A stretch of DNA of 26,253 nucleotides, taken from a virus. The notes below the pieces were generated by a model. It was not told the DNA's origin. It was given only the letters and a program-made list of their open reading frames with translations, and did no database searches. The DNA is taken from IMG/VR virus record IMGVR_UViG_3300013132_005696, positions 1-26,253 of that record. The stretch is one strand, 5' to 3'. The position numbers were made by a program, and so were the translations under genes. Shown one piece after another: positions 1 through 24,024 of the stretch (positions are counted from its first letter, which is position 1; the number at the start of each line of letters is the position of its first letter).

Positions 1-1
1 A

Positions 2-1975: not shown

Positions 1976-1977
1976 TT

Positions 1978-2628: not shown

Positions 2629-2685
2629 AATATTAATAATATAACCTAAGGTTTATAATTTTCAATAATAAATAATATAAGACAA

Positions 2686-3117: not shown

Positions 3118-3658
3118 GAAATTTGATGATATCGATAATGAAGTGGGCGGTGTAACACCTCAACCTACTACAGCTCCTGTTATTAATCCAAAGCAAGCAG
3201 TTAACCCCAATACGGCTGTTACAAGCCAATTTAATAATGCATATACTAGTTATGTACAACCGCAAACGAAAACAGCAACATCACAAACTCAACCTCAATC
3301 ACCTTCTCCGCAATCACTCCCAGCACCACAACCAGCATCTGTACCTACATTACCACCTCCTGCAGCTGCATCAAGTACACCAGCATCTCCGAAAAAGCCT
3401 GTAGATGCATCTAGGATAACTAAACAATATGATACCATGAGTAAAATTGTTAATGATCCAAATGCACCTAAAGGTGAAAAAGATGCAGCGGAGAAAAAGA
3501 TGTCTGAGTTTGAGAAAAAATATCAAGAAATTATTAATAAATACAAAACTGCACCTACAGCACCTGCAACAGCACCAGCACCTGCTGCAGCTCCAAGAGC
3601 GGCTACTACTGCAGCACCTGCAACAGCACCTCAGCAGCGGCTGCTGCGCCAGCAGTAG
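3098..3658 (+). CDS. Pro/Ala/Gln-rich protein, N-terminal part (probably split from 3661-4191)
   Basis: Starts at an ATG 13 bases after a good AAGGAG (3079-3084). Residues about 20-100 are low-complexity Pro/Gln/Thr/Ser. Residues about 103-150 form a charged helical segment (DASRITKQYDTMSKIV...EKKMSEFEKKYQEIINKYK), followed by an Ala/Pro repeat tail. The last nine residues (QQRLLRQQ region) break the Ala/Pro pattern, while the other frame over the same bases reads SAAAAAPAVAMPGGGK and runs straight into the next ORF. One missing base near 3631 would explain this. No function recognised; a disordered, structural-type protein is a guess. Confidence 0.7.
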   Translation: MKKFDPKKFDDIDNEVGGVTPQPTTAPVINPKQAVNPNTAVTSQFNNAYTSYVQPQTKTATSQTQPQSPSPQSLPAPQPASVPTLPPPAAASSTPASPKKPVDASRITKQYDTMSKIVNDPNAPKGEKDAAEKKMSEFEKKYQEIINKYKTAPTAPATAPAPAAAPRAATTAAPATAPQQRLLRQQ

Positions 3659-3660
3659 CT

Positions 3661-4191
3661 ATGCCTGGTGGTGGTAAGATACCACCTCCTGCAAATCCAA
3701 AGCCACCAACACCGGGCAGAGGAGGTGGGGGAGGCAGAGGAGGTAGGGGCAGTAGAGGCAGTGCTCCGTCAATGCAATCACCTACTAATTTAGCAGGGCT
3801 ACAGCAACAATTTCAAGGTATGGGACTTGCACCTGGCAAGCAAGGGCAGCAGCCCAAGAAAGGACCTGATATAATAAGTAGAATTGCTGCAGCACCTTTT
3901 AATGCACTTAATAAGGGTATAGGCGCATATTCGAATATAGTTAACGCACCTAGAAAATTAGGTCAAGCATTAAAAGCTGCAGCAGGTGGCGAGCCTTATC
4001 CTTTGCAGCAGCAGATTGCAGGTACTGCAAAAAAAGCAGGGTTAACTGCAGTAAAGCAACCTGAACCTGGATCACAGTCTGCCGCGCAGCAGTATTCAAC
4101 TCAACAAAAAATTAATGATTTAATTCAAAGAATTAGAAAAAATCCTAACGATCAGCAAGCAATCGTTCAATTGAAAGGCATGGGGTACTAA
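3661..4191 (+). CDS. Pro/Gly/Gln-rich protein, probable C-terminal part of the 3098 gene
   Basis: Begins MPGGGKIPPPANPK two bases after the stop of the preceding ORF, with no Shine-Dalgarno in front. Its frame is open upstream through an Ala-rich stretch, so this ATG may be an internal Met. It contains a Gly/Arg-rich tract (about residues 19-35), then predicted amphipathic helices (DIISRIAAAPFNALNKGIGAYSN), and ends in a charged helix (QQKINDLIQRIRKNPNDQQ) that resembles the helix at 103-150 of the upstream ORF. Followed closely by a strong terminator. Function unknown. Confidence 0.6.
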   Translation: MPGGGKIPPPANPKPPTPGRGGGGGRGGRGSRGSAPSMQSPTNLAGLQQQFQGMGLAPGKQGQQPKKGPDIISRIAAAPFNALNKGIGAYSNIVNAPRKLGQALKAAAGGEPYPLQQQIAGTAKKAGLTAVKQPEPGSQSAAQQYSTQQKINDLIQRIRKNPNDQQAIVQLKGMGY

Positions 4192-4195
4192 ATAT

Positions 4196-4239
4196 ATCAA
4201 CTATAGTTGAAAAAACATAGTTGATTTTTTTATTTTTTT
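4196..4239 (+). terminator. Rho-independent terminator after the Pro-rich gene
   Basis: Perfect 9-bp stem ATCAACTAT (4196-4204) / ATAGTTGAT (4217-4225) with a 12-base loop, followed by a T-run to 4239 broken by one A. It starts 5 bases after the upstream stop codon. Confidence 0.85.
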
Positions 4240-4248
4240 AGTTATAAT
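4221..4248 (+). promoter_or_regulatory. Sigma-70-like promoter for queD, overlapping the terminator
   Basis: TTGATT (4221-4226), 16-bp spacer, TATAAT (4243-4248). The -35 hexamer lies inside the downstream arm of the terminator. The predicted start is near 4255, giving about 18 bases of leader before the queD ATG. Confidence 0.5.
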
Positions 4249-4274
4249 ATTACGGTAATAGAAAGTAATATTAT
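4244..4274. repeat. 10-bp inverted repeat covering the queD start
   Basis: ATAATATTAC (4244-4253) and GTAATATTAT (4265-4274) are perfect inverted copies with an 11-base spacer. The left arm overlaps the -10 box and the right arm takes in the first two bases of the ATG, so it could be an operator or an RNA hairpin that hides the start codon. Confidence 0.6.
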
Positions 4275-4926
4275 GTTTATGAAATATGAAAGTACTAAGA
4301 TTATAGAGCTTGGTAGTTGTGCTTTTAGACAATGGAGAGCTAATCATAGTCATTGCAAGTTTGTACATGGTTATAGACTAGTAGCAAAATTTTGGTTCGG
4401 GTGCAATAAATTAGATGATAAAAATTGGGTTGTCGATTTCGGTGGTTTAAAAGGTCTCAAGACTATTCTTGAAAATCAATTTGATCATACATTATGTATT
4501 GCAAGTGACGACCCTTTAATAGAAGAATTTAGAAAATTACATACTTTAGGCGCGGTAGATTTAAGAGTAATGGAGAATGGTGTTGGTATAGAAAGAACGG
4601 CAGAATGGTGTTTAAAAGCAGCAGACGCTTTTGTGAGAAACTTAACATCTAATAGATGTTGGGTTACAAGGGTAGAAGTATGGGAACACGAGAAAAATTC
4701 TGCAATTGCAGAATCTACAAAAGATATTACAAATGTAGATAAATTTGTTGCAGAACAATTCGAATTGTTTCCGGAGAATCAAAAAACAGTTACAACCACT
4801 ATTAAAGCAAATCCTGGTATTAATACAGCAGCGGAAACCTCTTCCGGCTCAATCCCTGCACCTATAACAAATCATGTCACAACAGGTCTTAGAAACCCAT
4901 TCGCTGGTACTTCTTGGGGACTATGA
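4273..4926 (+). CDS. queD: 6-carboxy-tetrahydropterin synthase (QueD/PTPS family)
   Basis: Second step of preQ0 synthesis: dihydroneopterin triphosphate to 6-carboxy-5,6,7,8-tetrahydropterin. The PTPS motifs are visible: HSHCKFVHGY (residues 25-34; Cys28 is the likely catalytic cysteine, His25/27 and His32 metal ligands), NWVVDFGGLK (51-60), the catalytic FDHTLC (70-75) and VEVWEHEKNSA (135-144). The canonical second His of HGH is Tyr34 here. From memory, an HGY form with this FRQWRANHSHC context is a recurring subfamily, so it need not mean loss of activity. About 65 extra C-terminal residues are low-complexity. The stop overlaps the next start as ATGA. Confidence 0.88.
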   Translation: MFMKYESTKIIELGSCAFRQWRANHSHCKFVHGYRLVAKFWFGCNKLDDKNWVVDFGGLKGLKTILENQFDHTLCIASDDPLIEEFRKLHTLGAVDLRVMENGVGIERTAEWCLKAADAFVRNLTSNRCWVTRVEVWEHEKNSAIAESTKDITNVDKFVAEQFELFPENQKTVTTTIKANPGINTAAETSSGSIPAPITNHVTTGLRNPFAGTSWGL

Positions 4927-5138
4927 ACTTTGTACAGCGCGAAAAAGATCCCTTAATAACATCTCTTCATAATAACGTAATGCAACAAATGCAAAATATA
5001 GTTAATCCTAATCAAGCTAACATTCAAAAAAATAATGATCAATCACTAAGTCTAGACAATGCTGCAGTAGAAGCACAAAACAATGTTAAAGCTGCAATGC
5101 AAGAATTGTTAACTTTACTGAACAACCCTACTACTTAA
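4923..5138 (+). CDS. Unknown small protein, 71 residues, coupled to queD
   Basis: I chose the ATG at 4923 over the TTG at 4914: it forms an ATGA overlap with the queD stop and has GGGGA (4917-4920) just upstream. The product is Asn/Gln-rich and likely helical, with no motif I recognise. Translational coupling suggests it is made with QueD, but nothing shows a shared function. Its last 8 bases overlap the end of the converging phoH. Confidence 0.6.
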   Translation: MNFVQREKDPLITSLHNNVMQQMQNIVNPNQANIQKNNDQSLSLDNAAVEAQNNVKAAMQELLTLLNNPTT

Positions 5139-5862
5139 ATTTTATACCAGCTATTACCTTAACTATATATTTTAATAGCTTGCTTCTTGTAATATCTTCC
5201 TCTGTGAAATGAAACGAAACTATACCATTATTATGACTTTCGTCAGTATCAAATGCTTTCATAATCTTTTCAAAACCCGATTTTTGAATATCTGATTGCC
5301 ATGAATCACCTATTACGAAAAGCTTACAATTTTTTCCAAATCTAGTTAAAATTGTTACTAATTCGCTATGTTCTAGATTTTGAGCTTCATCTACAATAAC
5401 TACACTATTTGTAAAGGTTGACCCTCTTAAAAAATTAACTGGTACACATTTTAAATATTCACTGTCAAACAACATATTTGTTACTTGCTTACCTACTAAC
5501 TCGTCACATTTCTCAACTAACGGTATACTCCAAGGTTTAAATTTTTCATCAACCTCGCCTGGTAAACTACCCAGCTTGCGTGAAGCAGATTCAACTATAC
5601 TACGAATGTATATTATCTCATCTATTTTTTTATCTTTTAACATTGATAACGCAACATATACCGCACAATATGTTTTTGCTGTACCTGCGGGACCATCACA
5701 AAAGATAATATGAGTATTATCTTCTGCAGATTTATCTACAAAAGCTTTATGATGCTCGTTAAAATGATATTTTTGATCTATTTTAAAGTTTAGAAAAATA
5801 TCAGGTTTTATGAGTTCGTCTTTTTTGGCAGCTTTTCTTAGCTGGCGGTCTTTTTTAGACAT
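5131..5862 (-). CDS. phoH: PhoH-like ATPase
   Basis: Cytoplasmic P-loop ATPase of the PhoH family, common in phages of aquatic bacteria and of unsettled role (often linked to phosphate stress or RNA metabolism). Motifs: Walker A GPAGTAKT (57-64), RSIVESASRKLGSLPGE (87-103), Walker B VVIVDEAQN (154-162) and GDSWQSD (185-191). The length of 243 residues fits the phage form, which is a single PhoH domain. The N-terminus is Lys-rich. On its own strand an ATAAATA box (5870-5876) lies 7 bases before the ATG. Confidence 0.95.
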   Translation of the reverse strand: MSKKDRQLRKAAKKDELIKPDIFLNFKIDQKYHFNEHHKAFVDKSAEDNTHIIFCDGPAGTAKTYCAVYVALSMLKDKKIDEIIYIRSIVESASRKLGSLPGEVDEKFKPWSIPLVEKCDELVGKQVTNMLFDSEYLKCVPVNFLRGSTFTNSVVIVDEAQNLEHSELVTILTRFGKNCKLFVIGDSWQSDIQKSGFEKIMKAFDTDESHNNGIVSFHFTEEDITRSKLLKYIVKVIAGIKFK

Positions 5863-5869
5863 CTATAAT

Positions 5870-5876
5870 TATTTAT
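5870..5876 (-). promoter_or_regulatory. Late-promoter-like ATAAATA box before phoH
   Basis: ATAAATA on the minus strand, 7 bases before the phoH ATG; it resembles the T4 late consensus TATAAATA less its first base. There is no -35 element, as expected for a late promoter. In an AT-rich genome chance occurrence is possible. Confidence 0.35.
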
Positions 5877-5900
5877 TCTGGAAATCGTTAATTTATAACA

Positions 5901-5906
5901 TATAAT
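5901..5906 (+). promoter_or_regulatory. TATAAT box 7 bases before the 5914 gene
   Basis: Perfect -10 hexamer with a poor -35 candidate (CTGGAA, 5878-5883). It fits the start-adjacent -10 pattern seen before queE and the glycan island. Confidence 0.35.
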
Positions 5907-5913
5907 ATTAAAG

Positions 5914-6120
5914 ATGAGTATCAAGATAAATGCAGATTTAACTGAAGAGGAATTTAATACATTGTATGGTATTCTTGGTGAATACGCAAGAATTACTAGA
6001 GATCAGTATTATAGATTTGTAGAAACTGAATACACATATTCTTTTGACCCAGTTAATAAAAAAAGATTTGAAGAAGCGCAATGTCTTTTAAATAAGCTAG
6101 TTGAAGAAAATAAGAAATAA
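5914..6120 (+). CDS. Unknown small acidic protein, 68 residues
   Basis: Mostly predicted helical, with many Glu and Tyr (e.g. LTEEEFNTLYGILGEYARITRDQYYRF). No family recognised. It starts divergently from phoH across 51 bp and is followed 14 bp later by queE, with which it may share a transcript, although queE has its own promoter-like elements inside the end of this gene. Confidence 0.65.
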   Translation: MSIKINADLTEEEFNTLYGILGEYARITRDQYYRFVETEYTYSFDPVNKKRFEEAQCLLNKLVEENKK

Positions 6121-6128
6121 TATATAAT
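6101..6128 (+). promoter_or_regulatory. Sigma-70-like promoter for queE
   Basis: TTGAAG (6101-6106), 16-bp spacer, TATAAT (6123-6128), then 6 bases (AAGGTT) to the queE ATG. The AAGG would work as a Shine-Dalgarno only on longer transcripts, because the predicted start is at about the ATG. Confidence 0.5.
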
Positions 6129-6134
6129 AAGGTT

Positions 6135-6878
6135 ATGGAAGATACTATTTTTTTAAGTGACGATAAAATATTTTACACAGTAGAAGGTGAAGGAGAATAC
6201 GCAGGTATACCGTCAGTATTCATGCGTTTATCAATGTGTAACTTAACTTGTAAAGGATTTGCATCTGCAGATGCGCCTCACGGTTGTGATAGTTTTATTA
6301 GCTGGTCCATAAAAAATAAAATGACATTTGAAGAGATTTTTGAGTTAATAACACAAAATAGTTATAATTGTAAGTTAAGAGACGGTGCAATATGGAAAAT
6401 AACAGGTGGTGAGCCTCTCATACAGCAAAAACAATTACTTAAACTTGTTGCAGCATACAGAGATCGCTTTGGATATGTACCTATAATTGATTTTGAGACT
6501 AATGCAACAATACTGCCGGATGATGCTTGGATTAATGAATTTAAAGCTACGTTTACAACATCTCCTAAACTTTCTAATAATGGTGACCCTGATGAAAAGA
6601 GATTTAAGCCTACCATTTTAAAATGGCATGCAGAAAATAGGTCAGGTTTTAAATTTGTTATTAATAATGAATCTGATATAAATGAAGTTCTTGAAAAATA
6701 TATTCATAATCCTGAAATAAATGTACCTTCGAACCGCGTATGGTTAATGCCTTGCTGTGGCAGCAGAGCAGAACTAGCAGAAAAATCTGCTATGGTTGCA
6801 GAACTCTGTAAAAAACATATGCTTAATTTTAGCCCTAGATTACAATTATTAATCTGGGATAAAGCTTTAAAAGTTTAA
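6135..6878 (+). CDS. queE: 7-carboxy-7-deazaguanine synthase (radical SAM)
   Basis: Third step of preQ0 synthesis, a radical-SAM ring contraction of 6-carboxy-tetrahydropterin. Family signs: FYTVEGEGEYAGIPSVFMRLSMCNL region (13-37), GGEPL (91-95), and a substrate-binding-like TSPKLS segment. The 4Fe-4S cysteines are C35-x3-C39-x11-C51 instead of C-x3-C-x2-C, with a loop GFASADAPHG before the last cysteine. Expanded cluster loops are known in some QueE proteins, so I read this as a variant and not a defect. The 247 residues fit the family. It ends 1 base before the converging 6880 gene. Confidence 0.9.
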   Translation: MEDTIFLSDDKIFYTVEGEGEYAGIPSVFMRLSMCNLTCKGFASADAPHGCDSFISWSIKNKMTFEEIFELITQNSYNCKLRDGAIWKITGGEPLIQQKQLLKLVAAYRDRFGYVPIIDFETNATILPDDAWINEFKATFTTSPKLSNNGDPDEKRFKPTILKWHAENRSGFKFVINNESDINEVLEKYIHNPEINVPSNRVWLMPCCGSRAELAEKSAMVAELCKKHMLNFSPRLQLLIWDKALKV

Positions 6879-6879
6879 T

Positions 6880-7113
6880 TTATTTGCTGTAGTTAAAAAC
6901 TATATAACGACCATTACCAATAAATTGGTAATAAAGCCTAAATTTTTCATCACCTGGTACGTATACCCCCCAAACATCATCATTATTAAAGTATTCTCTT
7001 AAAGAAATAGTTTCTGTTTTTTGATTAATACGCTCTTTAACAAATTTTATTACATCATATACATCTCCTTCGAAAAGAATAACCTTACCCTGTTCGGTAT
7101 GCCAATTTGACAT
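6880..7113 (-). CDS. Unknown small protein, 77 residues
   Basis: No family recognised. Mixed alpha/beta character: KVILFEGDVYDVIKFVKERI followed by a Tyr/Phe-rich C-terminal half (FRLYYQFIGNGRYIVFNY). The start codon shares one base with the stop of the membrane-protein gene upstream on this strand (TAATG), so the two form a small coupled cassette. Confidence 0.65.
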   Translation of the reverse strand: MSNWHTEQGKVILFEGDVYDVIKFVKERINQKTETISLREYFNNDDVWGVYVPGDEKFRLYYQFIGNGRYIVFNYSK

Positions 7114-7271
7114 TATATTGATTTAAGTAGACGAAATAAATTTGAAAATTGTTCTTCCGAAAGTTTTCCTCTTAGAGTGTGTTTAATAAGTAAAAAGAAA
7201 ATTATTACTAGGGTTAAGGGTAATCGTAAAATAAACTTAATAGTTTTTATTAATTTATGGAAGGGGCACAT
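7113..7271 (-). CDS. Small single-span membrane protein, 52 residues
   Basis: A short reading frame on the minus strand: ATG at 7271-7269, stop at 7115-7113. It begins MCPFHKLIKTIKFILR, then has a hydrophobic span LPLTLVIIFFLLI (about 17-29), then a charged amphipathic tail KHTLRGKLSEEQFSNLFRLLKSI (split here by its own Gly34). Three points support it as real: it fills what would otherwise be an empty 158 bases, its stop overlaps the next ATG as TAATG, and it has a clean membrane-helix pattern with basic residues before the span. No family recognised. A role in superinfection exclusion or host membrane interference would suit the size but is only a guess. Confidence 0.6.
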   Translation of the reverse strand: MCPFHKLIKTIKFILRLPLTLVIIFFLLIKHTLRGKLSEEQFSNLFRLLKSI

Positions 7272-7323
7272 ATAAACATTTAAAATAATAATAGCAGTTT
7301 TCCACCATAATAATAATAATTGT

Positions 7324-7384
7324 GTAATTTATAAATTACCATTAATAATATTGAAAAATATTAAGTTTAGATTAAAATAATCTA
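7324..7384. promoter_or_regulatory. Divergent control region with three dyads
   Basis: In the 116-bp gap between divergent genes there is a perfect 16-bp palindrome GTAATTTATAAATTAC (7324-7339), an inverted repeat AATATT-GAAA-AATATT (7347-7362) and TAGATTA-AAA-TAATCTA (7368-7384), which ends 3 bases before the ATG at 7388. The palindrome contains TATAAATT, close to a T4 late box, on both strands. Confidence 0.5.
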
Positions 7385-7387
7385 ATA

Positions 7388-8134
7388 ATGAGAATTGCTG
7401 TATCCGGAACTGCTTGCCAAGGCAAAACAACATTTGTAAATGATTTTGTAAAAGAATGGCCAAAATATAGTATTATAGATTCTCAATATAGAAAAGAAAT
7501 TAAAGAAAAAAAACTTAAGCATAGTAGTCAGACTAGCGAAGAAGTGCAGTGGTTGATTTTAAATTCAATGATTGACGAAATGCAAAAAAATTGTGATAAA
7601 GATAACAAAGTACTTTTTGATAGATGCCCATTTGATAATATAGTCTATTCTATTTGGGCAAATGCAAAAGATTCGAAAAACATATCGGATGCATTTATTG
7701 AAAAATGTATACCGCTAGTGCGTGAATCAATGCGTATGCTTGATATTGTCTTTTTTATTCCAATTACTCGAGTTGCACCTATAACAGTTAAAGAAAATTC
7801 TACTCGCGAGACAGATGAAAACTTTATAAAAGAAATTGATAATATCTTCAAATCAATAGTTTATCAAGTTCAAAAAACGGGGGTTTCAGTATTTTTTCCT
7901 AAAGACGATTCTCCCGGGATAATAGAAATTTTTGGTAAACCTGAAGAACGTGTACACATGGCTAGATTTTATTTAAATGCAGAAGGTGATATGATTGGTG
8001 ATGAAAATAGCATTTTATCTGATTTAAACCTCACTTCACAAGTTGAAGATTTGCTCAAGGCTCAAAAAAATATTGCGGAGAGTGAAGAGTTTGAAAAGAA
8101 AATATATAAGAATTTAATTATACCTGATAGATAA
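7388..8134 (+). CDS. P-loop nucleotide-kinase-like ATPase (AAA_28/NadR-kinase type)
   Basis: Starts MRIAVSGTACQGKTTF with a Walker A GTACQGKT (7-14). A later LFDRCPFDN resembles the D-R-x substrate/phosphate motif of deoxynucleoside and nicotinamide-riboside kinases, and a basic region around RESMRMLD could act as the lid. Phages carry several such P-loop kinases for nucleotide or NAD salvage; the substrate cannot be told from sequence. At 248 residues it is longer than simple dNMP kinases, and the last 40 residues are a charged helical tail. The three dyads upstream suggest tight control. Confidence 0.65.
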   Translation: MRIAVSGTACQGKTTFVNDFVKEWPKYSIIDSQYRKEIKEKKLKHSSQTSEEVQWLILNSMIDEMQKNCDKDNKVLFDRCPFDNIVYSIWANAKDSKNISDAFIEKCIPLVRESMRMLDIVFFIPITRVAPITVKENSTRETDENFIKEIDNIFKSIVYQVQKTGVSVFFPKDDSPGIIEIFGKPEERVHMARFYLNAEGDMIGDENSILSDLNLTSQVEDLLKAQKNIAESEEFEKKIYKNLIIPDR

Positions 8135-8137
8135 ATA
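8131..8137 (+). promoter_or_regulatory. ATAAATA box 5 bases before the 8143 start
   Basis: Same ATAAATA-N5-start geometry as the 23044, 23345 and 24025 genes. It overlaps the stop codon of the upstream kinase-like gene. Confidence 0.4.
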
Positions 8138-8142
8138 TCTAT

Positions 8143-8358
8143 GTGAGTAATTTTAACGAAAATTTTGAAAAACTAATTAAAGAATTTAATTCTATAACAT
8201 ATAAAAAGAGACTTTTCTATCCTAGAAATTTTAAGCTTTCGGACGAATTTGTTTCAGCGTTTAAGAAGGAAATAAAGAGATTACTTGGTGAAGGTCATAG
8301 CCCCAAATTAATTTTAGATAAAATATCAAAAGCTCTTCTCTTCCATTTCAAAAATTAA
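8143..8358 (+). CDS. Unknown small basic protein, 71 residues, GTG start
   Basis: Reads MSNFNENFEKLIKEFNS..., helical and Lys-rich, no family recognised. The start is GTG: the ATG two bases earlier is in another frame and is followed at once by TGA. No in-frame ATG occurs later, and the ATAAATA-N5 spacing supports this GTG. It ends inside a hairpin shared with the converging structural gene, overlapping it by 4 bases. Confidence 0.55.
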   Translation: MSNFNENFEKLIKEFNSITYKKRLFYPRNFKLSDEFVSAFKKEIKRLLGEGHSPKLILDKISKALLFHFKN

Positions 8359-8376
8359 GCTTTCGGAAGCAATTTT
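8351..8376. terminator. Bidirectional terminator between converging genes
   Basis: Stem AAAATT (8351-8356) / AATTTT (8371-8376) continued by GCTT (8359-8362) / AAGC (8367-8370) around a TCGG loop, with a two-A bulge. Both strands show T-rich 3' sides. It contains both stop codons. Confidence 0.5.
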
Positions 8377-9179
8377 ATATAGTCGTTCCAATCAATAATT
8401 GAACCATTACTAGAAATATAATAAAATTTTGTAACGCTCCAAGTTAACAATGTTTGAGGAGGTAATTCAGCATCATTATTAGCAACATTAGCAATACAAA
8501 ATGGTATATATACTTTGTTTAATTGCTTGTAATTACCATCACCAAAATCATCTTCACCGCTTGCAACATAATTAGTAAAATTATAGTCAAAATCTTTTAC
8601 CCATACAAATGGAGATGCAGAAGCAATTTGAACTATGGTACCAGGGATATTCTGATTGTAAAAAACTTTATATTGAATATCATAGGAATATATATTCAAA
8701 CCATTAGGCACTGTTTTTGTACCAGATAAATCCCTCTGAAAAATGCCTATACCATACTGATGTTTATATTGATCTAACAATGCTGAACCTGAATCTGTAA
8801 ATACATTGAAAACAGATGCAGATAAAGAACTTATTTGCTTATTAATTGTAGTGCTTAGAGAAGTAATTTCGGAGGAATATAAATTTGCAGCAGATAAAAT
8901 AAGTCCCCCGCTTAAAATATAGGTATTATACTGACTTCCAGTCAGAGATGTGGTAGAAATGGTTTGTCGGTCTAAATTTCTTACGGACAGAGCTGAAAGA
9001 GGGCCAGTTGTCTTAAATTCAGGTAATAATACTCTGCCCGATGTTATATTTTTAAACTTTTTTGGAAATTGATAAGAAACAAAATTTATATTGCCAGCGC
9101 TAATAACACCAGTACCAAGTTTGGCTGTTTCAATAACAAATGTATCGTTATATGATAATGATGTAACGGTAGTATCCAT
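8355..9179 (-). CDS. Virion structural protein, probable tail/neck fibre type
   Basis: 274 residues rich in Ser, Thr, Ala, Asn and Tyr with short SLS/LSG repeats (e.g. SSEITSLSTTINKQISSLSA), a pattern typical of fibrous virion proteins. A mid-protein segment FNVFTDSGSALLD and the final LLTWSVTKFYYI resemble RIFTDGGVVLID and VRVTWNIIKIY of the 240-residue protein encoded just upstream on the same strand, so the two look like diverged copies. No enzymatic motif, signal peptide or membrane segment. The exact virion position is unknown. It starts 3 bases after the stop of its partner. Confidence 0.6.
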   Translation of the reverse strand: MDTTVTSLSYNDTFVIETAKLGTGVISAGNINFVSYQFPKKFKNITSGRVLLPEFKTTGPLSALSVRNLDRQTISTTSLTGSQYNTYILSGGLILSAANLYSSEITSLSTTINKQISSLSASVFNVFTDSGSALLDQYKHQYGIGIFQRDLSGTKTVPNGLNIYSYDIQYKVFYNQNIPGTIVQIASASPFVWVKDFDYNFTNYVASGEDDFGDGNYKQLNKVYIPFCIANVANNDAELPPQTLLTWSVTKFYYISSNGSIIDWNDYIKLLPKA

Positions 9180-9182
9180 TTA

Positions 9183-9905
9183 CTAATATATTTTTATAAT
9201 ATTCCATGTTACTCTTACATTTCTTCTTATCCCAGGTCTAAAAATTATTCTAAATTGAAGTTTGCTATTACTATTTACATAGCTATTACTAATATTTTCG
9301 TCTACTAAAAGTTGTGGCATTCCTGACAAATCATATGAATTTGTTAAGTAAGAATCTAATGAAGAGTTAAACAAATACTTTACGTTAATATCTGCAGCTT
9401 CTATAAAAAGGTTTTGCGGTACATCGTTGTTACCAATTATTACTTCAGAGAAGGACGGTGCAGTATCAGCACCATCAATAAGAACTACCCCACCATCAGT
9501 AAAAATTCTAGGTACTGCAGCAGAGACTTGATTTATTTTTGTATCGGTTGTTGCACTTACTGAATCAACATATACAGAATTTGTATTTCTTGCCTCTGTT
9601 ACTAATCCAGATTGTATCTTGAAAGTATTGAAACTACCTACCGCATTTACACCAGAAACACCGTCAATAAAAATTGAAGTAAGAAAAACTTTATTTGCTG
9701 ATATACCATCTGTCACAATCAAATTATTTGTTGTTAAAGTATCATTAATAGTAACATTATTTCCAGAAATAGGTACAAATGGCAGGCTTGTAAAATCAAT
9801 TAAATATTGGCCTGTGGGTGTTTTAATTGTAAAATAGTCGCCTGGTGCGATTTCTGGAATAACAGGCAAATCAGCTATATTGATATAATTTGAACTATTT
9901 GACAT
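9183..9905 (-). CDS. Virion structural protein, paralogue of the 8355 gene product
   Basis: 240 residues. The N-terminus (MSNSSNYINIADLPVIPEIAPGD region) is followed by a beta-type stretch of alternating Thr/Asn/Ile/Val (NNVTINDTLTTNNLIV), like repetitive fibre shafts. The C-terminal half shares FTDGG...LID and a terminal TWNIIKIY pattern with its downstream neighbour. Only 28 bp separate its ATG from the ATG of the divergent glycan island. On its own strand a TTAAATA sequence lies 6 bases upstream of the ATG, close to the late-type box. Confidence 0.6.
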   Translation of the reverse strand: MSNSSNYINIADLPVIPEIAPGDYFTIKTPTGQYLIDFTSLPFVPISGNNVTINDTLTTNNLIVTDGISANKVFLTSIFIDGVSGVNAVGSFNTFKIQSGLVTEARNTNSVYVDSVSATTDTKINQVSAAVPRIFTDGGVVLIDGADTAPSFSEVIIGNNDVPQNLFIEAADINVKYLFNSSLDSYLTNSYDLSGMPQLLVDENISNSYVNSNSKLQFRIIFRPGIRRNVRVTWNIIKIY

Positions 9906-9926
9906 TTCAAATATTTAATATATAAT
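9899..9926 (+). promoter_or_regulatory. Consensus sigma-70 promoter of the glycan island
   Basis: TTGACA (9899-9904), 16-bp spacer, TATAAT (9921-9926): both hexamers perfect. The first island ATG (9934) is 7 bases after the -10 box, so the predicted transcript begins at or within 1-2 bases of the start codon. The -35 overlaps the start codon of the divergent structural gene. Confidence 0.8.
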
Positions 9927-9933
9927 CACTGAG

Positions 9934-10698
9934 ATGAAAGGAAAAATTGGGATCGGTGTAATTACCTGTGATCGAATAGAGATGCTTAAAAAATGTCTAA
10001 ATAGCATCAAACAGGATTGGTATGATTATCTTGTTGTAATAAATGATGGTTCAACACATATAGATACTAAAAAATACAATGTTATTAATAACACAACTAA
10101 CTTAGGCGTAGGTAAATCAAAGAATATTGCTCTAAAGAAATTAATGGAAAGCGGTTGTGAGCATTTATTTCTTGTTGAAGATGATATTATTTTTAAAAAA
10201 AATGTGTTTGACGCTTATATTAATGCAAGTATCAAGACAAGAGTGAAGCATTTTAACTATTGTTTACATGGGGCGGATAATAAATTAGGAAATCAGCCAA
10301 ATCCAAGAGTTGTTTTTGATATTAGAGGCATTAGGGTTGCACTCTATTTTAATGTTTATGGTGCATGTAGCTACTATCACAAGACAATTATTGATGAAGT
10401 TGGATGCATGGATGAAGAATATATCAATGCAATGGAACATGTAGATCATACAATGCGCATTATTAAACATAGTTATCACCCACCCTTCAGATGGTTTATT
10501 GATCTTGAGAATAGCAATGAGTATATCGAAGATCAAGACTTTAATCACAATGAATCGAAAATTCGACAAGGTGATTGGGTTATTAATTTTCGAAAAGGTA
10601 TTGAAAGGTTTAAGCAAAAATATAATATCGACGTAACAAATCCGGCGGAAAAATATGAAGATTTAAATTCTGTAATTACATTTTTAAAAAAATTATGA
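9934..10698 (+). CDS. Family-2-type glycosyltransferase (GT-A fold)
   Basis: Predicted inverting sugar transferase using a nucleotide-sugar donor. It starts MKGKIGIGVITCDRIEMLKKCL, the usual first beta strand and helix of GT2, with the donor-site NDGS (37-40), a TNLGVGKSKNIAL segment (55-67) and the metal-binding EDD (82-84). A later HVDHTMRI segment could supply the catalytic acidic residue. No membrane span, so it is cytoplasmic. First gene of the island, directly behind a consensus promoter; its stop overlaps the next ATG by 4 bases. Acceptor unknown. Confidence 0.85.
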   Translation: MKGKIGIGVITCDRIEMLKKCLNSIKQDWYDYLVVINDGSTHIDTKKYNVINNTTNLGVGKSKNIALKKLMESGCEHLFLVEDDIIFKKNVFDAYINASIKTRVKHFNYCLHGADNKLGNQPNPRVVFDIRGIRVALYFNVYGACSYYHKTIIDEVGCMDEEYINAMEHVDHTMRIIKHSYHPPFRWFIDLENSNEYIEDQDFNHNESKIRQGDWVINFRKGIERFKQKYNIDVTNPAEKYEDLNSVITFLKKL

Positions 10699-11447
10699 AA
10701 ATTGGTGTTGGCATAACCACATTCAATTCAGAAAAAGTTTATTCCAATCTTTATGAATCTCTACCAAGAGATAAAATAGATGTCTTAGTTACTGTAAACG
10801 GTGGCAAAGAATACAAAAACAAATACACAGATAGTCACTGGATTCAGCATTCACAAAATTACTATCCTTCAACATGTAGAAATGATTGTTTGAGGTTTAT
10901 GCATGAAAGGGATGTTGATTATTTTATTACAATAGAAGATGATATGGTAATTAAGGACAAAGATATATTTGAAAAATATATTGCTGCCGCAAATATTTCA
11001 AAAATAGGTTATTTTTGTTTTGTGAGTACCTCGTGGGGGTCTGGTACCCCCGAAAAGAGGACACCAAAAATCGAGCTTCAATATAGTAAAAATATTTCAG
11101 TTTGTCTATATCCTAATATGTGTAATGAATTTACATTTAAAACTAAGAAGTGTTTTGAAGAGACAGGTCTATATAATAATAATTTTAGATTTTTATTCGA
11201 CGTAGAGAATGTATATAGAATTTCTAAAACAAATCATATGCCAGGGTTTTGGTGGTTTCCCGATCTAAAAAATTCTGATCAGTTAATTATGAATAACCCG
11301 GATTCTCAAACGCGCATAAACGCTGGCGGCGAAAGAGATAAGAAATTAGGACCAGAATACGAATTGTTTTATAAACTACACTCTATAAATATACCGAACA
11401 TTCCAAATTTACCAAAAGAGAATATTATTAATAAGATAAAATTATGA
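10695..11447 (+). CDS. Family-2-like glycosyltransferase
   Basis: Second of three adjacent genes beginning with the same strand pattern (MKIGVGITTFNS). The metal site is EDD (81-83) in FITIEDDMVIKD. The donor-site loop (VNGGKEY, 35-41) is shortened compared with the first gene. The region GFWWFPDLKNSDQ matches the position of FRWFIDLENSNE in the previous protein, so the two probably arose by duplication. Overlaps both neighbours by 4 bases (ATGA). Specificity unknown. Confidence 0.78.
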   Translation: MKIGVGITTFNSEKVYSNLYESLPRDKIDVLVTVNGGKEYKNKYTDSHWIQHSQNYYPSTCRNDCLRFMHERDVDYFITIEDDMVIKDKDIFEKYIAAANISKIGYFCFVSTSWGSGTPEKRTPKIELQYSKNISVCLYPNMCNEFTFKTKKCFEETGLYNNNFRFLFDVENVYRISKTNHMPGFWWFPDLKNSDQLIMNNPDSQTRINAGGERDKKLGPEYELFYKLHSINIPNIPNLPKENIINKIKL

Positions 11448-12214
11448 AAATCGGCATTGGTATAAGTAGCTATAAACAAGAAAAAGATTTGCTAGATAGA
11501 GAAAAATTTTGCTTAGAATCATTGAGAAAATGTAAAGAAAAAATAAAAAACGTTACATTATACACAATTATCAATGAAGGTGATAGAATTAATTATAAAA
11601 ATTTCGAGACATTAGAAATTAAGCAAGAAAAAAAAATACCTTACACTAATCAATTAATAGATAAAATCTCCGAAACTAACAACGATCTAATTGTATTTCT
11701 TAACAACGATATTATACTCAATAGTACTTTCTTTAAACTAATTGAAGATGATATTGATACATATCCAGCATCCCGTGCACATTTACATGAATTAAACTCT
11801 CTTTCAGAACCACTCAAGATACAATCTTATAGCGTTATGGGGTTTGATATGTTTGCTTTTAAAAATTCTTGGTGGAAAGCGAATAAGAAGTTATTTCCAA
11901 ATATGTATTTGGGCCGCTCATATTGGGATACAGTATATTTCATGAAATGTGTTTTAAATAGTAAATATAAAATCTTAAACAAGTTGCCCCCTGTAATATT
12001 TCATGCAGAGCATCAATCAGTTACAGAACACAACCATGATGAATTCAGAAATCATAACGAACAAATTGCTGCTGCAGATCCCGATATGGCAAAATGGTGG
12101 TACTATGTATATAATGTTCTTTTAAAAAGAAACACTATAGATGAAATATTATGGTGGAAGCCTCACGATAATGAAATTGAGTTAGAGAAAAAATTATTAA
12201 AAAATGAAAATTAA
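11444..12214 (+). CDS. Family-2-like glycosyltransferase
   Basis: Starts MKIGIGISSYKQEK, like the two genes before it, and carries an NND (87-89) in VFLNNDIILN where they have EDD, a change also seen in active GT2 enzymes. A Trp-rich C-terminal part (KWWYYVYNV, EILWWKP) may form the acceptor side. It overlaps the next gene by 11 bases. The N-terminal match to its neighbours suggests a three-gene tandem expansion. Confidence 0.72.
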   Translation: MKIGIGISSYKQEKDLLDREKFCLESLRKCKEKIKNVTLYTIINEGDRINYKNFETLEIKQEKKIPYTNQLIDKISETNNDLIVFLNNDIILNSTFFKLIEDDIDTYPASRAHLHELNSLSEPLKIQSYSVMGFDMFAFKNSWWKANKKLFPNMYLGRSYWDTVYFMKCVLNSKYKILNKLPPVIFHAEHQSVTEHNHDEFRNHNEQIAAADPDMAKWWYYVYNVLLKRNTIDEILWWKPHDNEIELEKKLLKNEN

Positions 12215-12899
12215 AGCGTATACTCTTTTTACTCCTTCACACGAAAAATTGTTAAAAAATTATTTGTTAGATTCATTTATATATTCACCAAAAATTGATT
12301 TAACTATTATCAATAAACCTCAACTTTGTGAAACTGCAGAGTTTGGCTCAAATGGGTGGAAATCTACAATGAGGTACAAGGCAGATTGTTTTTACGAAAA
12401 TCTTAAAAGATGTAATGAAGAGGAAATCTTTATGTTTATTGATCCTGATATAGTTGTTTATAAAGATTTTTGCGATGATATTTTGCAAAGAATGAACAAT
12501 TATGATGCTTTATTTCAAAACGATGGGCCAGGTGGTATAAACACAGGATTTTTTGCAGTTAAAAATAATAAGTTAACAAGGGCATTTTTTAATACGGTAA
12601 GAAATAATCTCGAACATTTTGATGAAGAACAAAGAACAGCAAATTATCTACTAAGAAATTTAGATCAGTATCCAACTATTTCTATAAAATGGGGATTTTT
12701 ACCATGGGAATATTGGACATACGGTCAAATCGCTGGTGAGTGGGACAATAAGGGTGGATTAAAAGGTCATTGGTTTAATACAGATAAAACCTTCTCAATA
12801 CCCAAAAATATTTTTATTCATCATGGCAATTGGACAAGAACATTTGATGATAAGTATAAAATTCTCGATACAGTGAGGTCACGTATAAATGGTAATTAA
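12204..12899 (+). CDS. Nucleotide-diphospho-sugar transferase (GT77-like)
   Basis: 231 residues with a D-x-D site FIDPDIVV (79-85), then GPGGINTGFFAVKNNK, in which the NTGFF-like pattern is typical of retaining GT-A enzymes of the nucleotide-diphospho-sugar transferase group. A C-terminal IFIHHGNWTR supplies the late His found in such enzymes. The early GWKSTMRYKADC (51-62) fits the usual donor-site Lys/Arg region. Not related by eye to the first three genes of the island, so it is probably a different linkage or donor. Confidence 0.72.
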   Translation: MKIKAYTLFTPSHEKLLKNYLLDSFIYSPKIDLTIINKPQLCETAEFGSNGWKSTMRYKADCFYENLKRCNEEEIFMFIDPDIVVYKDFCDDILQRMNNYDALFQNDGPGGINTGFFAVKNNKLTRAFFNTVRNNLEHFDEEQRTANYLLRNLDQYPTISIKWGFLPWEYWTYGQIAGEWDNKGGLKGHWFNTDKTFSIPKNIFIHHGNWTRTFDDKYKILDTVRSRINGN

Positions 12900-13752
12900 T
12901 TTTAAAAATTTGAGGGTACCTGCTAGCTACCCAGTTTACCCGCCATATCATAAAGGTGATTATCTAGAAGAATATTTTTATAAATTTTACAAAAATAATA
13001 AATCTAAATTTGATGAAATTAATAGAACTCTTATACCTATATTTTGGACTAATGTATATATAACAGGCAAAAATACCGAGTTATTACAACCATATCTGGA
13101 TAGTTTGCCTCGAGATAAAAAATATTTTACAGTCTCGCAACACGATGATGCAGTAAGTCAAATATTACCGCCCGATACTATAAGCTTTGAAGCAGGTGGA
13201 AATAGAAATGGAGTACCTATACCGTTAATTTGTTCGCCGATAGAGAAAGAACATCTCAATACTACAAAAAAAGATATATTTTGTTCATATGTAGGCTCAA
13301 TATCAAACAATGCGCATTGCAGAGTAAAATTGTACCAAACATATTCTAATGACCCGGATTTTTATTTTTCACAACCTAGATATTGGACACCTTCCGTGCC
13401 GCAAGATAAATTTGATGAATTTATTAATATTACAAAAAGATCTATTTTTAGTCTTTGTCCTAAAGGGTACGGCAAGCAAAGCTTTAGATTATATGAAGTT
13501 ATACAGTTAGGCTCCGTACCTATTTTTGTTTATACTGATAAGTGGTTTCCATTTAAAAAATTTATAAATTGGGATAAATTTTGTGTGTTAATTCATGAAA
13601 ACGAAATACATAGTTTGAAAAATAAACTCTTAAGCTATAATAAAATTGATATCAAAAATATGTTGGCGGAAGGTAGAAAAATATACAATGAATATTTCAC
13701 GATGGAAGGTATGTCTAGAGGTATTTTAAAATATTTGCAAAATGAAAAGTGA
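12889..13752 (+). CDS. Exostosin-like glycosyltransferase (GT47 type)
   Basis: 287 residues. The C-terminal half has the exostosin signature in SLCPKGYGKQSFRLYEVIQL (188-207), followed at once by GSVPIFV, where the Arg and Glu contact the nucleotide-sugar in GT-B enzymes. An FCSYVGSISNNAHCRVKLY segment (131-149) corresponds to the family's F-x-G...R region. Exostosin enzymes in eukaryotes extend heparan or pectin chains; bacterial and viral members act on surface glycans with unknown detail. It is shorter than eukaryotic members and lacks their membrane anchor. Overlaps both neighbours by 11 bases. Confidence 0.78.
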   Translation: MVINFKNLRVPASYPVYPPYHKGDYLEEYFYKFYKNNKSKFDEINRTLIPIFWTNVYITGKNTELLQPYLDSLPRDKKYFTVSQHDDAVSQILPPDTISFEAGGNRNGVPIPLICSPIEKEHLNTTKKDIFCSYVGSISNNAHCRVKLYQTYSNDPDFYFSQPRYWTPSVPQDKFDEFINITKRSIFSLCPKGYGKQSFRLYEVIQLGSVPIFVYTDKWFPFKKFINWDKFCVLIHENEIHSLKNKLLSYNKIDIKNMLAEGRKIYNEYFTMEGMSRGILKYLQNEK

Positions 13753-14491
13753 TTTACCATTATTTTATTATCAACCTAACACTGTAGATTTTCTAGAGAA
13801 AAGTGTTGAGCTAAACAAGAAAATATTTAAAAATCTTATAATTTTGCAAAAAGATTTTTATGAACCTTTTGATAGTATATACAAGCATATGTGCTATAAC
13901 CATGAAGCTTTTGAACGGTTTTGCTTAAGACGATTTTTTGTTATGTTAGAATACGTCAAAGAGAACAATATAGACAAATTTCTTTATTCTGATACTGATG
14001 CAATATTTTTAAAGTTATTAGATTTTGAAAATATACTTGGTAAGGAACATAGCATTCTCTGTAAACCTGCGGAACAAGATAAATTTGACGATATTGCTGC
14101 AGCACATTTTTCAATATGGTCACGAGCCGGTTTGGAAAATTTTTGTGATTTTGTATTATCAGTCTATGCTAATAACATACAGATAATTGAACCAAAATGG
14201 CACTGGCACATAAGCACAGCAACTGGCGGCGGTATATGTGATATGACACTACTATATCATTGGTATAAAAATAAAAAAAGTTTATTAGACTATTATAATG
14301 GTGGAGTATTTGATCGTACTATTGGAATTTCACATAATAATTACAAGAATGAATTTGTAACAAAGGATGGTATTAAGAAGCTTAAAAGAAAAGATAGTAT
14401 TGTTTATGGTACTAATAATAAAGGTGAAGAAATAGAATTTTATGGGGTGCATTTTCAAGGAGCAAATAAAAGACTAATGTTTCTATTATGA
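13742..14491 (+). CDS. Glycosyltransferase-like protein with DTD motif
   Basis: 249 residues. A D-x-D site SDTDAIF (83-89) follows a helical region with FCLRRFFVMLEYV, the arrangement seen in GT-A sugar transferases. GGGICDMTLLYHWY resembles the D-x-x-L element of retaining enzymes, and VHFQGANKRLM near the end supplies a C-terminal His. I do not recognise the exact family. Its place between other transferases and the ATGA overlap with the next gene support a role in the same pathway. Confidence 0.65.
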   Translation: MKSDLPLFYYQPNTVDFLEKSVELNKKIFKNLIILQKDFYEPFDSIYKHMCYNHEAFERFCLRRFFVMLEYVKENNIDKFLYSDTDAIFLKLLDFENILGKEHSILCKPAEQDKFDDIAAAHFSIWSRAGLENFCDFVLSVYANNIQIIEPKWHWHISTATGGGICDMTLLYHWYKNKKSLLDYYNGGVFDRTIGISHNNYKNEFVTKDGIKKLKRKDSIVYGTNNKGEEIEFYGVHFQGANKRLMFLL

Positions 14492-15291
14492 AAAAATTTT
14501 TAACAACCTTTGCATTGTATGACGATTATAAGCAAAATTTATATAGTCAATATATTAAACCTAGATATATAAAATATTCTCAATTGCATGGATTGAAATT
14601 TGTAGAACTCAATCACAATAATTTTTCTATTAAAACATTACATCCGGAATTTCCTCCAAGAGAAAATATGCATTTTAATAGATGGATGTTATTTAAAGAC
14701 CTTCTAGATCAAAATGTAATTAATGACGGTGACATAATTTATAATTTTGATGCAGATATTTTTATTAAAGATTTAAACAAGTTCTTTACACCCACAAAAG
14801 CTTTTTCGTATGCAATTGATTCTGGCAATACTCATTGTTTTGGTTTTTTTGCACTACTAATAAATAATTTTAGCAGAAAACTTATTGATAATATTATTAA
14901 TAGAGAAAGATGGCTCAAGGTAAGTCAACATGAGTTTTTCAATGAACATGACAATACAAAAGGCAGATGGCATATTGCAGATCAACAGATGTATTACACG
15001 TGTGCTGGTATAAAACCACATAGTTGGAAATCTTTTTATGAACTAGATAATTACGGCTTTCACTCTTATCCAACAGAACATACTATTTTTTCTTTAACAG
15101 ATCTATTAGATAATATAAATGTATTACCTACCGAATGGAACGTTACGCAACTTGCTGAGGAAACTGGTGATAACGGTAAACCAAATATGTATGATATCGT
15201 TCAAACAACAGAAGAAAAAACAATTTTTAGACATTTTGCAGGTGGTCAGCCCTGGAGATTTAACGAATGGTCATTAAAATACCCATTATAA
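14488..15291 (+). CDS. Glycosyltransferase (GT34/GT8-like) with DAD motif
   Basis: 267 residues. IIYNFDADIFI carries the D-x-D site (Asp88, Asp90), DQQMYY lies about 75 residues further on, and VLPTEWNVT followed by IFRHFAGG near the end gives the His of the C-terminal metal site. This order (DxD, DQ, W-N, H-F-x-G) is what retaining galactosyl/glucosyl transferases of the GT8 and GT34 groups show. The donor cannot be assigned. One base separates its stop from the methyltransferase ATG. Confidence 0.7.
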   Translation: MKKFLTTFALYDDYKQNLYSQYIKPRYIKYSQLHGLKFVELNHNNFSIKTLHPEFPPRENMHFNRWMLFKDLLDQNVINDGDIIYNFDADIFIKDLNKFFTPTKAFSYAIDSGNTHCFGFFALLINNFSRKLIDNIINRERWLKVSQHEFFNEHDNTKGRWHIADQQMYYTCAGIKPHSWKSFYELDNYGFHSYPTEHTIFSLTDLLDNINVLPTEWNVTQLAEETGDNGKPNMYDIVQTTEEKTIFRHFAGGQPWRFNEWSLKYPL

Positions 15292-15292
15292 T

Positions 15293-15883
15293 ATGCCAGT
15301 AGTTGAACCATATTTAGGCGGATCAATGTATGAAGGAGATCCCGCAACAGCTTTTCCTACCTTGTGGGAATTTTTAGTAAAAGATAAAAATATAAAGACA
15401 GTTTTAGATGTTGGTTGTGGTAGGGGCCATGCATTAAAAATATTTCAAGATTTAGGCTGCAAAGTAACAGGTATAGAAGGCGACATAGAAGCAGTTAATA
15501 CTGCTTTGGTACCTGGAAGAATTAAATGCTATGATTTTACTTATCAAAAAGTTGTACCACAAAAAGATTTTGATTTAGTTATAAGCGTTGAATTTGTCGA
15601 ACATGTTGAAGAAAAATTTAAAGAAAATTTTTTAACTTGTTTTGATAAAGGTAAATTTATTGCAATGACATTTGCCGGGCCGGGACAAGGTGGGCATCAC
15701 CATGTAAACTGTCAACCTGCTGAATATTGGATTAAAGAAATAGAAAAGCGTGGGTTTATTTACAACGATCAGTATACAAAAATTTTAAAAGATAAAGCTA
15801 TTTCTGATAGATTTAATTTTTGCCCCACTTTTGATGGGAACCATTTTGAACACAGAGGTCTTTTCTTTGAACGAAAAAAATGA
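15293..15883 (+). CDS. SAM-dependent methyltransferase
   Basis: Class I Rossmann methyltransferase of 196 residues. Motif I VLDVGCGRGHAL (37-48), acidic residue after strand 2 in GIEGD (60-64), and FDLVISVEFVEHVEE as motif IV/post-I. Because all neighbours act on sugars, the likely substrate is a sugar or glycan (for example O-methyl capping), but Ubi/COQ-type or other small-molecule methylation cannot be excluded. A His-rich GGHHHVNC loop lies near the active site side. Overlaps the next gene by 4 bases. Confidence 0.85.
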   Translation: MPVVEPYLGGSMYEGDPATAFPTLWEFLVKDKNIKTVLDVGCGRGHALKIFQDLGCKVTGIEGDIEAVNTALVPGRIKCYDFTYQKVVPQKDFDLVISVEFVEHVEEKFKENFLTCFDKGKFIAMTFAGPGQGGHHHVNCQPAEYWIKEIEKRGFIYNDQYTKILKDKAISDRFNFCPTFDGNHFEHRGLFFERKK

Positions 15884-16608
15884 AAATAACTGATATAACT
15901 ATTTGTTTGCATTGCGGATGCAATAGAGACATAACAAACACACAAATGCGTATGTTAGAAGGTGTGGAGCAGAAATATAATGTTACATGGAATAATCGCA
16001 TTGATCGTTACCCTCATATGTACAATTCCTATTCATTGCTTATTAATCATTCCATAGTGACGTCTCCAACAGAATGGGTTATACTCATTAATGACAGAAC
16101 ATCACCTACATTATCTGAAATAGATAAGATGGTAAATTTATTAGAAAATGGTTTTTCATGTGTTTTCTTGTATGCTGTTGGATTTATGGGATTTTCAAAA
16201 GAATTAATACGACAAATCGGCTGGTGGGACGAAAGATATGTTCACGGTGGATGGGAAGATAGAGATTGGGTTTTTCGTCTGGCTGAATCAAATTTAGCTC
16301 TCTACGAAAGTTTGGAGAGTACATATGACAATACATGGAAGTCCCCTCTTAATGTACCAGGCGGTAATAGCTCCACACCTTTTTGGCTTAAGAAATGGAA
16401 TGGTTATGATCATCATATTTTATATAAAAATATTGATGATGAAAAATACCCGCACTGGGATTTATTTCTTGGCAATTCAAGACCCGATATTAGCAAAACA
16501 TGGAAAAAATGGAATGATTCTATTTTGAATATAGACTATAATAAACCGGGCGCAGGGCCTTCCGGTTCTTCTATTTTAAGTAATAGAAAAATTGTAAAGA
16601 ATTTTTAA
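15880..16608 (+). CDS. Family-2-like glycosyltransferase
   Basis: 242 residues. It has an NDR (71-73) in VILINDRTSP at the place of the metal site, and GGWEDRDWVFRLAES (123-137), a GT2-type catalytic ED followed by a helix. GFMGFSKELIRQIGWWDERY just before it is the standard segment preceding that motif. The first 60 residues are shorter and less GT2-like than in the 9934 product. Four bases separate it from the next gene. Confidence 0.75.
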   Translation: MKITDITICLHCGCNRDITNTQMRMLEGVEQKYNVTWNNRIDRYPHMYNSYSLLINHSIVTSPTEWVILINDRTSPTLSEIDKMVNLLENGFSCVFLYAVGFMGFSKELIRQIGWWDERYVHGGWEDRDWVFRLAESNLALYESLESTYDNTWKSPLNVPGGNSSTPFWLKKWNGYDHHILYKNIDDEKYPHWDLFLGNSRPDISKTWKKWNDSILNIDYNKPGAGPSGSSILSNRKIVKNF

Positions 16609-16612
16609 TGCT

Positions 16613-17569
16613 ATGAAAAAACATATCCTAATAACTGGTGGAGCTGGATTTCTCGGCACACATTCAATCGAAAAATATCTTGATAATGATTATACAGTTA
16701 CAGTAATAGATAATTTTTCTACTGCAGTAGTAAGAGAAACCAACCCTGTACTTCAAAACATTAATTTAATAAATGGAGATATTTTAAAATTTAACTTTAA
16801 TGATCTGGGTAAATATGATCTTATTTTACATTTAGCAAGCCCCGTAGGGCCTGCAGGTATTCTCAAACATTCAGGTAATATGGCGAGATATATTCTGGAT
16901 GATATTTACTGGGCAATAGATGGTGCGCTTATTAATAATTGTCCTTTAATTTTCTTAAGTACATCAGAGATTTATGGTTTCAGAGACAGACCTGTTTTAT
17001 TGAAAGAAAACGATGACAAAATTTTAGTTGGTGAATTTAAAGTTAGAAACGAGTATAGTATTTCTAAATTATTAGCAGAAATAGTTTTATCAAATACTGC
17101 AAAGGTAAATAAAAATTTAAAATATCAAATTATTCGCCCCTTTAATATAAGCGGTGCGCGGCAATTAAAAACAGGCGGTTTTGTATTACCTACTTTTGTA
17201 CAGCAAGCACTTGAAGGTACTGATATTACTGTTTTTGGTGATGGTACACAAGTAAGAGCTTTTACGCATGTAAAAGATATAGTTGACGGAATTTTTCTTA
17301 CATCCCAGACAAAAAATTATAATCAAATATGGAATGTCGGTAATTCTGATAATATTGCATCAATTCATAAAATGGCGGAAATAGTAAAACAAAAAACTAA
17401 TAGTAATTCAAAAATTACTCTTGTTGATCCCAAGAATATACATGGCCCGTTATATGAAGAAGCATGGGATAAAATTCCAGATGCGTCAAAAATTAGAACT
17501 GATCTCGGATGGGCTCCAAAATACAATATAGATTTTATTATTGATGATGTTATAAATTACTATAAATGA
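16613..17569 (+). CDS. NAD-dependent nucleotide-sugar epimerase/decarboxylase (extended SDR)
   Basis: 318 residues, usual length. NAD site GGAGFLG (9-15), HLASPVGPAG after strand 4, LSTSEIYG with the catalytic Ser/Thr region, and YSISK as the Y-x-x-x-K pair. RPFNISG and VFGDGTQVRAFTHVKDIVDG are the substrate-binding signatures of this family. The nearest well-known relatives are UDP-glucuronate decarboxylase and UDP-glucose 4-epimerase; the HLASP motif leans to the decarboxylase side, which makes UDP-xylose. The sugar is not certain. Overlaps the next gene by 4 bases (ATGA). Confidence 0.8.
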   Translation: MKKHILITGGAGFLGTHSIEKYLDNDYTVTVIDNFSTAVVRETNPVLQNINLINGDILKFNFNDLGKYDLILHLASPVGPAGILKHSGNMARYILDDIYWAIDGALINNCPLIFLSTSEIYGFRDRPVLLKENDDKILVGEFKVRNEYSISKLLAEIVLSNTAKVNKNLKYQIIRPFNISGARQLKTGGFVLPTFVQQALEGTDITVFGDGTQVRAFTHVKDIVDGIFLTSQTKNYNQIWNVGNSDNIASIHKMAEIVKQKTNSNSKITLVDPKNIHGPLYEEAWDKIPDASKIRTDLGWAPKYNIDFIIDDVINYYK

Positions 17570-18309: not shown

Positions 18310-18329
18310 TTGATAATAAAAATTAATAC

Positions 18330-18335
18330 TATAAT
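18330..18335 (+). promoter_or_regulatory. TATAAT box 8 bases before the 18344 gene
   Basis: Perfect -10 hexamer in the only real gap of the island. A TTGATA at 18310-18315 is spaced by only 14 bp, which is short, so this is a weak call. Confidence 0.35.
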
Positions 18336-18343
18336 TTAAAATA

Positions 18344-19318: not shown

Positions 19319-19319
19319 T
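19314..19319 (+). promoter_or_regulatory. TATAAT box 6 bases before the 19326 gene
   Basis: Perfect -10 hexamer overlapping the stop codon of the epimerase gene; no good -35 at the right distance. Listed because it repeats the start-adjacent geometry. Confidence 0.3.
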
Positions 19320-19325
19320 AAACGT

Positions 19326-24019: not shown

Positions 24020-24024
24020 TTATT

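Follow-up and report, generated by a model that had tools for sequence, protein, structure and literature searches.

Leaderless mRNAs of phages have usually been regarded as a minority curiosity. In sigma70 promoters the -10 element spans -12 to -7, which puts +1 at the seventh base after it, and the +1 base is normally a purine; the middle promoters of phage T4 carry the MotA box TGCTTTA. The early promoters of T4 have GTTTAC as their consensus -35 element and the T4 late box extends from -13 to -6 (PMC1524935). Bacterial leaderless genes whose -10 box adjoins the open reading frame are known from the Actinobacteria and Deinococcus-Thermus (PMC3160421, PMC12340547), and one AR9 paper mentions in passing that phage transcripts are 'often leaderless'. 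Our search of the open-access literature found no report of a T4-like phage whose genome is organised around leaderless initiation, nor of matching transcription in a cyanophage.

Here we analyse a stretch of 26,253 nucleotides of viral DNA (IMG/VR record IMGVR_UViG_3300013132_005696), referred to as the window. It is a fragment of a virus in which gp21- and gp23-like genes lie close together, and since the closest isolate gp23 is only 34% identical to its own, the lineage is an uncultured T4-like one. On roughly a hundred IMG/VR contigs there is a gp23 relative with at least 56% identity. A scan of genome contigs with gp23 for a host-binned relative found none, and the epimerase gene was set aside as a guide to the host because its relatives, at about 60-70% identity, are spread over many phyla. 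A long open frame at positions 2-1975 of the window encodes Thr/Pro-rich TPTxT repeats and, after them, repeated glycine-rich units that are RCC1-like in look. We find that the single promoter noted at 9899-9936 is an instance of the general plan of its clade, late promoters included. Judged from sequence comparison, this is very probably a real promoter of the sigma70 type that yields a leaderless glycosyltransferase mRNA, within a T4-like clade that has leaderless early as well as late starts.

The interval between two divergent genes

The first-pass annotation had described consensus -35 and -10 hexamers, a 16-bp spacer and an ATG 7 bases past the -10, all of which are confirmed in the arrangement below.

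9183-9905, minus strand: divergent gene, predicted late, starting Met-Ser-Asn
9899-9904, plus strand: -35 hexamer TTGACA, read from the sequence and conserved in relatives
9905-9920, plus strand: 16-bp spacer, equal to the modal spacer of the clade's TATAAT promoter class
9912-9917, minus strand: TAAATA late-type element of the 9183-9905 gene, within the spacer of the plus promoter
9921-9926, plus strand: -10 hexamer TATAAT (TACAAT in one relative)
9934-9936, plus strand: ATG, preceded by the 7 bases CACTGAG
9933-9934, plus strand: predicted transcription start, placed by the usual sigma70 geometry and by the 6-nt peak of the clade
9934-10698, plus strand: glycosyltransferase, first gene of the operon (PHROG 2456, E 8e-29)
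10695-18309, plus strand: remaining operon genes, tightly packed downstream of the first glycosyltransferase

With 12 of 12 hexamer positions matched at a spacing of 16 bp, within the 16-18 bp of the sigma70 type, 9899-9926 is the sole such site in positions 1-20000 of the window. Consensus hexamers are no guarantee of promoter strength. The spacer is typical, 16 bp being the modal length among 84 pooled clade sites. The first T of the -10 lies at -13 from the start codon (the clade peak is at -12, and the figure for TA-led genes about 12 bp), and the sequence ahead of ATG 9934 has no Shine-Dalgarno (SD) site. Since the -10 is followed by 7 nt rather than the 6 that are modal in the clade, a 1-nt leader is possible, and we infer that +1 is either the A of the AUG or the base before it.

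Downstream, the genes of the 9934-18309 operon are separated by gaps of -11 to +4 nt, and 10695-18309 encodes glycosyltransferases, a methyltransferase, an epimerase-like gene and a UDP-glucose-dehydrogenase-like gene. The closely packed internal genes of this island lack TATAAT and TAAATA start motifs. Relatives conserve the first two glycosyltransferases of the cassette; most of what follows differs or has been replaced.

The -35 had also been described as shared with the start region of the divergent gene, and it does overlap codons 1-3 of that gene: TTGACA is the reverse complement of TG-TCA-AA, from start-codon bases 2-3 to base 2 of codon 3, and so doubles as the Met-Ser-Asn coding sequence of the minus-strand neighbour. 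That neighbour had been called a late structural gene. Its predicted lateness is based on a conserved TAAATA element; the structural part found no backing, as PHROG and Pfam searches with the 9183-9905 protein gave no match. The element is a TATAAATA-like box without a -35, reading TTAAATA, conserved and 6 nt from the ATG. Because it falls within the plus-strand promoter's spacer, the opposing promoters are interleaved between start codons (9183-9905 on the minus strand, 9934 on the plus strand) that are 28 bp apart, and early use of one would be expected to exclude late use of the other.

Start-docked motifs across the clade

Gene-based counts were made with the same ORF caller on all genomes, and the window together with its 217-kb relative G001 comprises 310 genes. 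In 24 of these genes the ATG follows TATAAT after 5-8 nt (3.4 expected from shuffles), with a peak at 6 nt; in 54 it follows TAAATA over that range (3.5 expected), with a peak at 5 nt. Counted without gene calls, an ATG lies exactly 6 nt past TATAAT 27 times against 9.3 expected (in the wider clade 75 against 28.7). For TAAATA the favoured distance is exactly 5 nt, with 41 ATGs against 4.5 expected (in the wider clade 142 against 21.5). GTG is likewise enriched 5 nt past TAAATA in the window and G001 (13 against 2.3), with no enrichment in the wider clade, and TTG at this distance is enriched in neither set. A peak that includes GTG but not TTG is as expected if the start codon begins with the +1 purine, and the enrichment suggests leaderless GTG genes, for example at 8132-8145. 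Given the span of the T4 late box, +1 is the sixth base past the box, which matches the 5-nt peak of TAAATA; with the geometry of each box taken into account, the 6-nt and the 5-nt peaks both make the A of the AUG the +1 base. Examples in the window are the following.

5870-5875, minus strand: TAAATA, 7 nt before the PhoH ATG at 5862
5901-5906, plus strand: TATAAT, 7 nt before the ATG at 5914
6123-6128, plus strand: TATAAT, 6 nt before the QueE ATG at 6135
8132-8137, plus strand: TAAATA, 5 nt before the GTG start at 8143
18330-18335, plus strand: TATAAT, 8 nt before the epimerase ATG at 18344
19314-19319, plus strand: TATAAT, 6 nt before the ATG at 19326
23033-23038, plus strand: TAAATA, 5 nt before the ATG at 23044
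23334-23339, plus strand: TAAATA, 5 nt before the ATG at 23345 of the gp21-like protease gene
24014-24019, plus strand: TAAATA, 5 nt before the ATG at 24025; the upstream gene terminates in the TAA of this element

TAAATA contains a stop codon, and an artefact of calling ORFs from the first ATG after a stop was considered and rejected: the stop and a start at the main, 5-nt peak are in different frames, control genomes put through the same caller lack the peak, and it persists without gene calling. Of the 34 genes that have TAAATA at 5 nt, 9 have a gap that would fit the TAA ending the upstream gene (G001, L010-L021, and window 24014-24027), so that stop, promoter and start are packed into 14 bp. 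Divergent genes just 19 and 15 bp apart carry late-type elements on both strands within the gap (L014:17847-17867 and L015:1910-1926).

AT-rich motifs just before an AUG might resemble promoters yet act in translation initiation, as A/U-rich, unstructured sites to which ribosomal protein S1 binds. The motifs do occupy the SD position in an AT-rich genome where SD sites are rare (AGGAG 5-9 nt before the start in 5 of the 310 genes, against 22 of 223 in T4), but we consider this reading unlikely on several grounds. There are two motifs with two exact spacings, each fitting its own +1, and a -35 element lies 16 bp upstream in one class only. TTGA is found 15-18 bp upstream of 16 of the 24 start-proximal TATAAT against 14 of 379 other TATAAT in G001, and it precedes only 5 of 54 start-docked TAAATA at that distance. 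Among TTGA..TATAAT sites that have an ORF no more than 80 nt away, the ORF is 5-8 nt distant in 24 of 31, against 0-1 in each control; the -35 pooled from the 84 clade sites reads T79 T62 G61 A51.

The two classes also divide by function. Annotated TATAAT genes encode ribonucleotide reductase, QueD, QueE, GTP cyclohydrolase, a helicase, UDP-glucose dehydrogenase, an epimerase and a glycosyltransferase; annotated TAAATA genes encode tail sheath, tail tube, fibre or baseplate proteins, a head-tail connector-like protein and the head protease, and also PhoH, a non-virion protein. This split describes an annotated minority, as many proteins of the TAAATA class were scanned without a PHROG match. 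The metabolic and replicative character of the one class against the mostly structural character of the other lends indirect support to the early expression that had been proposed for the glycosyltransferase island. Translation signals would fit poorly, too, with the motif-free internal genes of the packed operon and with AT-rich outgroup phages that lack the pattern.

A homologue of gp55, the late sigma, occurs in both long relatives (G001 and G002, E about 1e-24), the window itself being a fragment. The gp45 sliding clamp was not found in G001 by HMM and Pfam searches, the latter of which also missed known positives; in this genome, which has gp55, the clamp is either too divergent or off the contig.

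In a gp23 tree (FastTree), start docking is characteristic of a 93-row group that has 100% local support, while the 29 rows of the outgroup have distant late boxes and commoner SD sites. Two long branches inside the 93-row clade, L161 and L168, keep distant late promoters and SD sites and may be reversals or early branches. Start-docked motif counts are 0-4 in T4, P-SSM2, OspM_OC and Cr30, and the docked pattern is absent from these four phages and from the gp23 outgroup contigs, AT-rich outgroup phages included.

Conservation of the locus and a proposed scheme

Three distinct relatives (L002, L004 and L005) have the same gene pair, with identities of 57-60% for the divergent protein and 65-67% for the glycosyltransferase. 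In all three, TTGACA is unchanged, as are the spacer of 16 bp and the distance of 28 bp between the two ATGs, with no indel, and the -10 is TATAAT or TACAAT. The block TATTTAATATA(T/C)AAT is nearly invariant, and the bases from the -10 to the ATG vary. Conservation at 9899-9926 goes beyond coding need: in the genome set just 6 of 32 serines at codon 2 are encoded by TCA, yet TCA is kept by 3 of 3 relatives, so coding constraint alone is insufficient to explain the -35 hexamer. We regard this retention as mildly informative.

A coincidental perfect match, with TTGACA supplied by the Met-Ser-Asn codons and TATAAT by AT-richness together with the neighbour's late promoter, would draw on the overlap of TTGACA with coding sequence and on the number of loose promoter-like matches, which is near the shuffle level (125 against 112). 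It is very unlikely all the same. TTGACA-N16..18-TATAAT occurs once in the whole window against 0.05 expected from dinucleotide shuffles, the spacing and the -35 are invariant in the relatives, TATAAT lies outside the TAAATA element, and the site fits the clade's pattern of -35, spacer and -10. Least probable of all is a real promoter whose transcripts nevertheless carry a leader, begun upstream or at a second promoter within the neighbour gene, for promoter-like words are present upstream but the conserved block ends at the -10, the neighbouring stretch has no comparable conserved pair and there is no SD site for a leader. The leaderless mRNA from a sigma70-type promoter that had been proposed for 9934 is well supported, at the level of sequence, by position, conservation and genome-wide statistics.

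Under this preferred reading, host RNA polymerase would read 9899-9934 without phage factors and ahead of the late programme. The first glycosyltransferase would be translated from a 5'-terminal AUG, and the later operon genes by coupling through overlapping stop and start codons. Each promoter class would sit at the AUG distance dictated by its own start-site geometry: TTGAnn-16-TATAAT, about 6 nt away, would serve genes for metabolism and replication; a gp55-type sigma would read the T4-late-type TAAATA, which would sit about 5 nt away and serve mainly virion genes. Leader loss would let back-to-back genes share gaps down to 15-60 bp. We lean, if only slightly, towards a broader proposal, that this large uncultured clade, which occurs in many metagenomes, converted both host-sigma and gp55-type late transcription to leaderless initiation and that interleaved pairs such as 9905/9934 act as regulator-free, exclusive early/late switches.

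By a strict motif count, the whole T4-like clade seems to use leaderless mRNAs for about a quarter of its genes, in both classes. Related T4-like phages have mostly retained leaders and SD sites and would offer a natural contrast for studying how, and why, leaders disappear. The scheme predicts a host with efficient leaderless translation and a sigma factor of the TTGA/TATAAT type. It also suggests a rule for calling gene starts in genomes of the clade, namely that +1 is the start codon, and would make early and late promoters readable directly from metagenomic sequence.

Comparison with known systems

The TATAAT class resembles T4 early promoters in being of the sigma70 type and presumably read by unmodified host polymerase; it has TTGA in place of the T4 -35 GTTTAC, and its -10 adjoins the AUG. 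Perfect TTGACA-TATAAT sites like that of the window occur in cyanophages of the P-SSM2 type, where, unlike in the clade, leaders follow and almost none of the sites lies 5-8 nt from an ATG. The TAAATA class shares with the gp55-dependent late promoters of T4 (TATAAATA) a TAAATA core at -10, the usual lack of a -35 and a gp55 homologue. The core lies mostly 20-29 nt before the ATG in T4, with an SD site between, and mostly 20-29 nt upstream in P-SSM2 as well, whereas in the clade the distance is 5-8 nt. Pelagibacter phage HTVC008M (L042-L048) has TAAATA 5-8 nt before the ATG of about 10 genes, nine at exactly 5; unlike in the clade, its docked genes are a minority, SD sites are common and start-docked TTGA..TATAAT is absent. 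From these positions, this cultured phage appears to have a partial late leaderless set.

Like the clade, the TA-led genes of Actinobacteria and Deinococcus-Thermus have a -10 whose first T is about 12 bp before the start, no leader or SD site, and a -10 box that itself serves as the promoter. The clade differs from them in consisting of T4-like phages, in early-type sites that retain a clear -35, and in a second, phage-specific late promoter class that is docked in the same way.
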